From Thermoplasmatota archaeon (GTDB lineage Archaea > Thermoplasmatota > Thermoplasmata > UBA10834), in NCBI GenBank assembly GCA_018818785.1, contig JAHIRF010000006.1, forward strand, positions 1 through 64,000: a stretch of 64,000 nt of DNA, written 5' to 3'. The position numbers and the translations under genes are program-made. A model generated the notes under the pieces. It was given only the letters and a program-made list of their open reading frames with translations. It was not told the DNA's origin and searched no databases. Below are positions 511 through 42,616 of the stretch, piece by piece. Numbering within the stretch: position 1 is the first letter of the stretch; every line of letters starts with the position of its first letter.

Positions 511-1662
511 CTGAGAAAGATAGCATTGGCATCATTGATGGCCGTGTTGATCATGGTACCCGTCATGCTAGCCGCCGCGCCCGCACGCGCGGACACGGTC
601 GCGGACAGCTGGACGGTCATGGTCTACATGGACGGCGACAACAACGTGGAATCATACGCGCTTAGGGACCTCGAGGAGCTGAAATTGACAGGGTCGAGCG
701 ACAATGTGAACTATGTGGTCCTGCTGGACACGCTTGAAGGTCCCGCGGACCTCCTGTACGTGAACGAGGGCACGACGACGATCATAGAGGCATGGGGAGA
801 GGTCGCAATGGACGACCCGGCGACCTTGACGGAATTCATCGACACCGTCGAAGGACTGTACCCGGCAACGAACTACTGCCTGGACATATGGGACCATGGT
901 GGTGGCATCGCAGGGATATGCTGGGACGACACGTCCGGAATGAGCCAGTGCCTGACGATGCCCGAGCTCAGAACGGCCCTGGTCGATGCGGATTGCGTGT
1001 TCGATTCGATCGTCCTGAACGCATGCGTGATGGCACAGGCAGAGGTCGCGCACCAAGTGAACGGATACGCCGATTACGTGGTCTTCAGCCAGCAGAACAT
1101 GTACGCGCTCGGTTGGCCCTACGACTTGGTAGCAGAGAACCTGAACGCCGAGCCGACTATGGACGGCAGGGCGTTCTCGTTGATGATGGTGGAAGAATAC
1201 ACCTCGTACTACCAGGCGATAGGCTACAAGGGTGTCACCATCAGCGTGTTCGACATGGCATGTCTCGGAGTACTCGCGGACGCGGTCAAGGACTTCGCGA
1301 ACTCACAGATCGCGGTCATGGGCACATACCAGAAGGGGTTCAAGTTCGCCAGGATGGACACCGCATCTGCGTCTAACGCAGCTGACATCATAGGGTATGC
1401 CGAGAACGTCATCGCGAGCGAGAGGATCTCTGACCAGAACGTGAAGAACGCGGCTCAAGCGGTCATATACGCCGTCGATGCGGCCATCATAGCCGAATGG
1501 CACAGCGCAGACGTCGAAGGCATGAATGGTCTGGGCATCTGGTTCCCGACCAAGTCCGTGACATACTACTGGGGCGCGACCTACGAGGCCAGGTACAGGG
1601 CCCTGACATGGGACGCAGCCACCGGCTGGGCAGACTTCCTGGACGCGTATTACGCGAAGTAA
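511..1662 (+). CDS. Secreted clostripain-like cysteine protease (family C11)
   Basis: About 383 residues. The N-terminus RKIALASLMAVLIMVPVML ending AAAPARA is a signal peptide, followed by SWTVMVYMDGDNN, the usual opening of peptidase family C11. The catalytic His lies in IWDHGGG (about residue 129) and the catalytic Cys in VLNACVMAQAEV (about residue 172). The conventional start is TTG at 526, but that removes the positively charged n-region. A CTG at 511 lies 6 nt after GGGGGAG (498-504) and gives L/M-R-K-I-A, so I prefer 511. C11 enzymes cleave after Arg or Lys; the role is probably degradation of external protein. Two paralogues lie at 41206 and 63447. Confidence 0.88.
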   Translation: MRKIALASLMAVLIMVPVMLAAAPARADTVADSWTVMVYMDGDNNVESYALRDLEELKLTGSSDNVNYVVLLDTLEGPADLLYVNEGTTTIIEAWGEVAMDDPATLTEFIDTVEGLYPATNYCLDIWDHGGGIAGICWDDTSGMSQCLTMPELRTALVDADCVFDSIVLNACVMAQAEVAHQVNGYADYVVFSQQNMYALGWPYDLVAENLNAEPTMDGRAFSLMMVEEYTSYYQAIGYKGVTISVFDMACLGVLADAVKDFANSQIAVMGTYQKGFKFARMDTASASNAADIIGYAENVIASERISDQNVKNAAQAVIYAVDAAIIAEWHSADVEGMNGLGIWFPTKSVTYYWGATYEARYRALTWDAATGWADFLDAYYAK

Positions 1663-27887: not shown

Positions 27888-27908
27888 CCTATTTGAGGAG
27901 GAATCGAC

Positions 27909-28490
27909 ATTTCTGGCTCGAACTTCGATGAGCCGGATTTTGAAATAGAGAGACTCAAGTTTGAACCATTCAAAGCTGATACTGCCGAAGTAAAGTCCTT
28001 TGATTGTGGAATCGCAGAATTGAATGATTTCCTATGCAGCGATGAAGTTGCTACATACGAGAAGCAGAAAGTTGGTAGGACAACTTTGGTATATCACCAA
28101 GGTAGGCTCGTCGCATACTATACAATAAGCAATGACCAGCTTAGAACCGAATACGTCAAGAAACACACCGGTTTCTCATTGCCAAACGAAATGCGACTTG
28201 AGGGCATACCTGCAATAACAATAGGTCGACTAGCGGTCAGCAAGGAATGGCAAAAAAGGGGACTCGGCACGGCAATCATTCAGAAGATAGCCATGTATGC
28301 GCTTCACTGCTCCACTCAATCCGGAATAAGACTCCTTCTAGTTCGAGCAAAGAAAAATGCCTTTGGATTCTACGAGAAGATGGGCTTCCAGTACGTAATT
28401 GAAACAAGGAGAGAAAAACAGAGAATTCAGAATTACGGGACTAAGACAATGTTCTTTGACCTCAAAACTCTCAGCGACCTAGAGAGTTAG
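27909..28490 (+). CDS. GNAT acetyltransferase, probable toxin of a toxin-antitoxin pair
   Basis: About 193 residues if translation starts at the ATT at 27909, which lies 7 nt after GAGGAGG. The first conventional start (TTG 28020) would delete the N-terminal strand with KFEPFKADTAEVKSFDCGIA, a conserved part of TacT-like GNAT proteins (the FDCG...LNDFL pattern), so the upstream start is preferred. The acetyl-CoA motif A is ITIGRLAVSKEWQKRGLGTA, followed by LLVRAKKNAFGFYEKMGF. Toxins of this class acetylate aminoacyl-tRNA. The small gene directly upstream could encode the antidote. Confidence 0.75.
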   Translation: MSGSNFDEPDFEIERLKFEPFKADTAEVKSFDCGIAELNDFLCSDEVATYEKQKVGRTTLVYHQGRLVAYYTISNDQLRTEYVKKHTGFSLPNEMRLEGIPAITIGRLAVSKEWQKRGLGTAIIQKIAMYALHCSTQSGIRLLLVRAKKNAFGFYEKMGFQYVIETRREKQRIQNYGTKTMFFDLKTLSDLES

Positions 28491-41205: not shown

Positions 41206-42468
41206 CTAGGCAACGCCCCAATAGGTCTCCAGGAACGGCCACCAGCCCATGTTCGGGAATTCGAAGGTGATATAGATGTTGAATCCGCCCCACTCCGACT
41301 CGGCGTATGGCACCGTGTAGGAGTTGTGGCTCGCGGGGAACAGTATGCCCATGCCCTGGTATCCATAATTCTCGCTGTTCTTGGTGATGCCCATCCCGAG
41401 CATAGTCTCGAAATACGCGTCCATCACCGCCTCGCACGCCTTGTAGACCGAGCTGTCCCCATCCACGTTCTCCATGACATAGTCAACGAACGTAGGCAGG
41501 TCTATCCAGCTCTCCAGACGCGCACCCCAGGGGATAATGGAGTTCAGCTGGGCCTTCTTGACGATGTCACGACAGGAATCGATGTCCTCCGCCAGGGCAG
41601 TTGCCATGGCGGTCACGGCGTTCCCGAGCGGGATGATCTTCGACATGTCGAACACCGACTGCGTTGTGAGGATCTCGCTCTTGAACGGCGCCACGCTGAA
41701 CAGGTTGGTGAACTCCTCGACGATGGCCATGCTCAGCTCGAGCGCATCCATGTCCGGGTCGAGGACCAGCCTCTGATGGATCTTGTCGTACGAGAACCCG
41801 CGCCATCCGATGTAGCTCTCGCTGGCGACGACGTAGTCGACGTCGAGCCCCTTGGATGCGTACTCGTAGAGGGTCTCCATCTGACCTATGGAACACTCGT
41901 CGCACGCGATGATGTCCAGGTGGTGTCCGGCGAGGGCGGATATCATCTCGTGGTGGGACAACCAGTCCCAGTCACTCCCAGGCTCGCTTCCAGGGAGCGT
42001 CGTGTCGACGCCGACGCCGCCTGTCGGCGTGCCGTGGTCCCAGAAGTAGAGCAGCATGTGCTCCGCCGGGAAGTTGGTGTCGCTGTACTCGACGAACCAC
42101 TTCAGGGTCTCAGGGTCTCCCATGTTGACCTCGCCAAGGCTCTCGAGCTCCACCATTTCGTTGTCCTTGATGTAGTATAGATACGCCTCATCGTACAGTC
42201 TGTCGACCAGTATCAGAACGTTGACAGAGTCGCTCGAGCCTCCGTCCTTGAGCTCCTGGAAGTCCTCCTCTGTGTACTGGTCGAGGTCGTTGTCCGCGAC
42301 GAGGTACACGAGCACCGACCATTTGGCGACCTGTCTTGTCTCCTCATCCACGCTCTCCACGGACACTTCCTCCGTCTTCCCCGTCGTCACGCCGGTAAGC
42401 AGAGACAGGACGAAGACGGCGGCCACTGATATGCTGATCAGAACCTTCGGTATCGGATATCGGTGAAT
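41206..42468 (-). CDS. Secreted clostripain-like cysteine protease (family C11), second copy
   Basis: About 420 residues if translation begins at the ATT at 42468, which lies 7 nt after GGGGAG (42481-42476). The extension HRYPIPKVLISISVAA completes a signal peptide; the first conventional start, GTG 42426, leaves it without a charged n-region. KWSVLVYLVADNDLDQYTEE opens the C11 domain. The catalytic His is in YFWDHGTPTGG and the Cys in IIACDECSIGQMETLYE (the second Cys of that stretch). It ends without an anchor. Paralogues lie at 511 and 63447; sequence divergence shows these are old duplicates. Confidence 0.87.
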   Translation of the reverse strand: MHRYPIPKVLISISVAAVFVLSLLTGVTTGKTEEVSVESVDEETRQVAKWSVLVYLVADNDLDQYTEEDFQELKDGGSSDSVNVLILVDRLYDEAYLYYIKDNEMVELESLGEVNMGDPETLKWFVEYSDTNFPAEHMLLYFWDHGTPTGGVGVDTTLPGSEPGSDWDWLSHHEMISALAGHHLDIIACDECSIGQMETLYEYASKGLDVDYVVASESYIGWRGFSYDKIHQRLVLDPDMDALELSMAIVEEFTNLFSVAPFKSEILTTQSVFDMSKIIPLGNAVTAMATALAEDIDSCRDIVKKAQLNSIIPWGARLESWIDLPTFVDYVMENVDGDSSVYKACEAVMDAYFETMLGMGITKNSENYGYQGMGILFPASHNSYTVPYAESEWGGFNIYITFEFPNMGWWPFLETYWGVA

Positions 42469-42616
42469 ACGCTCACTCCCCTAGAATCCGAGACGGTTAA
42501 GCGCCGTCATCGGCCTTAACCCTTTAGGTATACTGACTATATATACGAAGAGTGCTCCCGAAAACTTCGACGCAACGGCCGAGAGCAGGGGATGGCAGCC
42601 GTATGATCGGTCGAGA

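Follow-up and report, generated by a model that had tools for sequence, protein, structure and literature searches.

AUU starts are known in bacteria from infC and pcnB of E. coli, and near-cognate initiation in eukaryotes uses CUG, ACG, AUU and AUA. Published comparisons, which use annotated starts, contain very few starts outside ATG, GTG and TTG (PMC5622118). Among 61,358 ancestral AUG starts, 3 were found to have switched, two to CUG and one to AUU, again on the basis of annotated starts (Belinky et al. 2017, PMC5622118). Non-standard starts are easily missed because the published comparisons rest on annotated starts (PMC5622118).

We analyzed the start of a C11 peptidase gene, the second one in a window of 64,000 nt of archaeal DNA, and our data indicate that its translation very probably begins at an ATT codon. 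The genome of the window is called G000 here and the genomes of its relatives carry other G numbers. The gene resembles infC and pcnB in that its putative AUU start stands behind a Shine-Dalgarno (SD) sequence and is kept in relatives. It differs from them in being archaeal, with aIF1/aIF2 in place of IF3, in encoding a presumably secreted protease without a known tie to initiation-factor autoregulation, and in that its archaeal family also appears to use ACG and CTG to start other genes. It is thus no case of infC-type AUU autoregulation, the product being a C11 peptidase and not an initiation factor. As in the cases of PMC5622118, CUG or AUU takes the place of AUG, GUG or UUG among related prokaryotes, but the archaeal family has several such cases in about 300 compared genes, and ACG and AUA occur there too. 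The codon set is that of eukaryotic near-cognate initiation, each codon being one mismatch from AUG, with AAG and AGG outside the well-supported cases of the archaeal family. Unlike the eukaryotic starts, the archaeal ones would be guided by the SD sequence and not by scanning, and they lack a Kozak context. In the open-licence literature on near-cognate, ACG or unusual archaeal starts we did not find such a case described.

The proposed start site and the protein

The initial annotation had placed GGGGAG, a 7-nt spacer and an ATT start at 42468 before a frame that completes a signal peptide. These positions are exact on the minus strand (Table 1), and the frame from ATT does translate as (I)HRYPIPKVLISISV; an in-frame TAG and a 9-codon upstream ORF had been overlooked. 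Four codons separate this TAG from the ATT, the fifth of the open frame, and no ATG, GTG or TTG occurs in frame between the TAG and GTG 42426, which lies 14 codons 3' of ATT. On the minus strand GGATTC precedes the TAG and GCC follows the GTG. ATT is one base from ATG, and its offset of 7 from the SD sequence is the one most frequent between SD and ATG in G000, whose 16S rRNA 3' tail reads GGATCACCTCCT.

The Pfam match of the protein passes the curated cut-off of PF03415 (129.3 bits vs 25.8), and the translation contains WDHG and ACDEC, which are candidate catalytic His and Cys motifs as read from the letters. The domain match is to peptidase family C11 (clostripain, PF03415), of which the protease is one of 13 paralogous matches in G000. 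The C11 peptidases are expanded across the family, with 23 matches in G007.

Two side observations concern the leader. The element TATATAGTCAGT, at 42545-42532 in the window, is found 5' of two C11 genes and one other gene for a predicted secreted protein, and a looser version of this motif has 6 matches in 688 kb of G000 vs 2.15 in shuffles. The upstream ORF at 42510-42481 could encode a leader peptide or serve translational coupling.

Table 1. Features around the start of the protease gene, start-column leaders in related genes, and related loci. Positions are those of the window unless a contig is given.
Feature	Position	Strand	Remarks
Reading of the start region	42483-42424	-	TAG GGG AGT GAG CGT ATT CAC CGA TAT CCG ATA CCG AAG GTT CTG ATC AGC ATA TCA GTG
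C11 (clostripain-type) peptidase gene	41206..42468	-	420 codons from ATT plus stop; Pfam PF03415, E 3.3e-37
Peptidase_C11 match, residues 54-311	41536..42309	-	span includes the WDHG and ACDEC motifs
Signal-peptide-like N terminus	42376..42468	-	n-region HRYPIPK, hydrophobic core VLISISVAAVFVLSLLTGV; read by eye
Proposed start codon ATT	42466..42468	-	codon column common to orthologues (ATT/ATA/ATG)
Spacer TGAGCGT, 7 nt	42475-42469	-	between GGGGAG and ATT
Shine-Dalgarno GGGGAG, then TGA	42476..42481	-	duplex with 16S tail -11.3 kcal/mol
In-frame stop TAG	42483-42481	-	overlaps the SD
Upstream ORF ATG..TAG, 9 codons	42481..42510	-	in the protease frame; stop overlaps the SD
GTG, first standard start codon	42424..42426	-	internal valine codon if ATT 42468 is the start
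GTCAGT element	42532..42537	-	directly 3' of the TATA box
TATA box (TATATATA)	42538..42545	-	TATATAGTCAGT also 5' of the orthologues in G012, G009, G010, G005, G003
Further G000 copy of TATATAGTCAGT	C1:87916		besides window 42545-42532
Further G000 copy of TATATAGTCAGT	C12:317322	minus	besides window 42545-42532
G000 leader	42468 column		GGGGAGTGAGCGT then ATT
G010 leader	42468 column		GGGGGTGAGGGG then ATT
G012 leader	42468 column		GGGGGGTGAGTGT then ATA
G009 leader	42468 column		GGGGGGTGAGAGT then ATA
G003 leader	42468 column		GGAGGTGAGGGG then ATA
G010 second copy (paralogue) leader	42468 column		GGGGGGTGAGAGG then ATA
G001 leader	42468 column		GGGTGAGGGA then ATG
G000 MCM helicase gene	C12:62219	minus	ACG in the start column

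Conservation of the start column

The comparison of orthologues had been set beforehand as the test that could overturn the ATT start. None of the orthologues begins at 42426, and they have ATG, ATT or ATA at or beside the ATT column. Identity to the G000 protease is 83 percent in G012 and G009, 73 in G010, 68 in G016, 65 in G005, 64 in G007 and 58 in G003; the G001 orthologue is a 98-codon fragment, 61 percent identical, that includes the start. The start position is conserved as an ATT/ATA/ATG column in seven genes, while G005, G007 and G016 have an ATG one codon off this column, each with its own SD. The ATT could have been a chance triplet behind a G-rich block, but it is not, because SD block and codon column recur in five other genes.

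The frame from the ATT column is the same 420 codons with zero indels in G000, G009, G012 and G010, and upstream stops in these four genomes exclude any other 5' standard start. No standard start at SD spacing is present in G010, G009, G012 or G003, which have ATT or ATA in the column. The G000 and G009 genes differ at 53/30/140 sites in codon positions 1/2/3, and the protease frame is therefore under purifying selection. For the leaders of the ATT and ATA genes, which carry G-rich/GGTGA SD blocks, the duplex with the 16S tail has -11.3 to -15.9 kcal/mol, the SD of G000 being the weakest among them, and the leaders of the ATG genes pair at -8.4 to -13.1 kcal/mol, with -8.4 for G001. The proposal of ATT 42468 as the start is thus borne out by orthologues with ATT, ATA or ATG in the same column behind an SD, and we consider it very probable that translation of the protease starts there.

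Alternative starts

The 9-codon upstream ORF offers another entry point, either with a start at ATG 42510 and read-through or recoding of the TAG, or with translation of the ORF followed by re-initiation at ATT. ATG 42510 shares the protease frame and lies about 28 nt 3' of the TATA box, and the pattern of ATG, eight codons and TAG is kept in G012 and G009. The pattern is absent in G010, which keeps ATT in the column with neither the upstream ATG nor the TAG, and in G001 and G005 a stop lies between any upstream start and the protease frame. We reject the read-through on these grounds and consider the two versions together improbable; the re-initiation version would still have ATT as the start.

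Translation from GTG 42426 is slightly less probable still. A standard gene finder would pick this GTG, and G012, G009 and G010 also have GTG in its column. It has no SD, and a start there would remove the basic n-region, as the initial annotation had held. Conservation, with mainly third-position changes, runs seven codons 5' of it, G005, G007 and G016 have an ATG upstream of its column, and our codon-usage model puts the coding onset 5' of it, at IPKVLISISV. The codons for KVLISISV between ATT and GTG change mostly at the third position, with synonymous or conservative effect, so that GTG 42426 should be internal. We reject it as the start.

About the same slim chance goes to another nearby codon as the true start, namely ATA 42453 or the fifth-codon GTG or ATG of relatives. 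Four codons after the ATA of the column there is an ATG in G012 and a GTG in G009, but these lie ~19 nt from the G-run, and a standard start at the fifth codon is absent in G000 (which has CCG there), G010 and G003. A start codon lost by sequencing error, or a decaying gene, is hardly credible and the error is rejected: G000 is a metagenome assembly (1.97 Mb, 12 contigs), but independent assemblies share ATT or ATA in the column, and the frame, which is intact, shows purifying selection.

Probable near-cognate starts in other genes

The MCM replication helicase (MCM_OB, E 7e-29) appears to start at ACG in several genomes of the family. The aligned first codon is ACG in G000, G003, G004, G006, G008, G011 and G013, after GGGGGG-type SDs, and TGA stands directly before it in 4/7 of these genomes (G004, G006, G008, G013). 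The G006 gene has no standard start before codon 75, and G009 has GTG in the start column. A small membrane protein has CTG in the corresponding column in G009, G010, G016 and G005 and ACG in G007, whereas in G018 and in the two G004 copies the same GGAGGTGA block is followed by ATG; the block 5' of the column is GAGGAGGAGGTGAGAGA or a close variant. These loci were found with a query that is approximate after residue 45, and the columns were read directly from the loci.

Two further sites in the window had been cited as companions of ATT 42468. The one in a GNAT gene reads GAGGAGG, 7 nt and ATT 27909 (window 27896-27911), a possible start, the next standard start being a TTG 37 codons on; a G006 relative has ATC in the column and TTG three codons later. 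The one at 511 does not hold as ATT: window 511-525, at the first C11 protease, reads GGGGGAG, 6 nt and CTG AGA AAG, and CTG is the probable start there.

CTG starts are likely for a CDP-alcohol phosphatidyltransferase of both G000 and G010 (preceded by TGA in G010), for the UDP-GlcNAc 2-epimerase of G000, for a DUF92 protein in G000, which has TTG in G009, and for a G010 protein with TTG in G009 and G000. Another G010 protein likely starts at ACG, its G000 counterpart having GTG, and so does a PurF-like frame in G009 whose identity comes from its DECGVF motif. Two more possible cases, C12+26474 and C1-137921, have a GTG three codons 5' of the codon in question.

Extent of putative near-cognate starts

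Sequence from G000 (688 kb), G009 (800 kb) and G010 (383 kb) was used. The loose test in G000 (SD score 6.5, in frame vs out of frame) gave no enrichment of ATT, ATA, ATC or CTG, and at SD score 7.5 G000 alone had 12 near-cognates observed vs 12 expected, i.e. zero excess. At SD score 8.5, 55 genes of the three genomes together lacked a standard start, and 25 near-cognates were counted among them vs 7 expected out of frame; G000 alone gave 9 vs 3.5. Over the 406 orthologue columns anchored on an SD-backed standard start, the partner also had a standard start in 361. Where the partner retains the SD and lacks an SD-backed standard start elsewhere, near-cognates of ATG make up 8/12 non-standard codons (7/58 expected, p = 1.4e-5), a count that includes related pairs and so is not fully independent, and in which 2/8 (ATC) look internal. 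The two genomes of a control pair, taken from a different family of this class, shared too few orthologues for such a count, with 18 reciprocal best hits and 3 columns that could be used.

The suggestion of relaxed start codons for this organism finds limited support, as a trait that the family shows in a minority of its genes; the MCM helicase and the small membrane protein, which are its best examples, and the strict SD test indicate this. It fails as a general change of the code, and the loose test in G000 does not bear it out.

Initiation machinery and a possible mechanism

Loss of aIF1 finds no support as the cause of relaxed starts: SUI1 (aIF1) is matched in G000 and 14/18 family relatives, and the four others are assemblies of 55-87 percent completeness. 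An alignment of 11 family aIF1 sequences (G000 locus left out) showed no striking departure from the rest of the class. The 16S site that we take to be 1338-1339 reads CATGAAG and looks normal. The usual uninterrupted anticodon arm of the initiator tRNA (GGGNTCATAACCC) had no match within a tRNA in any of 19 genomes; the surroundings of its only two matches are not tRNAs. Because both CAU tRNAs seen in G009 contain introns, the initiator tRNA was perhaps missed through an intron. Sulfolobus aIF1 has been reported to favour discrimination against non-canonical starts, according to work cited in PMC6237735.

The simplest reading of the sequences would be that the SD guides initiation and that Met-tRNAi is used on a near-cognate codon. 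Pairing of GGGGAG(TGA) with the 16S rRNA tail would position the 30S subunit on the protease mRNA, and the initiator Met-tRNA (anticodon CAU) would be accepted in the P site on AUU, paired at two positions and mismatched at the third base. We infer initiation with Met, and likewise the rate of initiation at ATT 42468; Met would then be the first residue of the protease, and its signal peptide would be complete. A strong SD may offset the weak start codon, and the pairing energies fit this for the few sequences at hand. Behind a good SD, codons one base from AUG (CUG, ACG, AUU, AUA) may start a small share of the genes of the family.

We speculate, with the chances evenly balanced, that stringency has been lowered in one Thermoplasmata family. 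About 1-3 percent or more of its genes, that of the replicative helicase among them, would then start stably at ACG, CUG, AUU or AUA, and the cause would be a lineage-specific change of the initiation machinery that is invisible in aIF1 or in the 16S positions examined. Gene finders limited to ATG, GTG and TTG cannot call ACG, CTG, ATT or ATA starts, and where a near-cognate start is missed the predicted protein loses its N terminus and signal peptide, and signals further 5' are misread. Conserved ACG, CTG, ATT and ATA starts, including that of MCM, a gene expected to be essential, would if true provide a natural system for the study of start-codon stringency in archaea.
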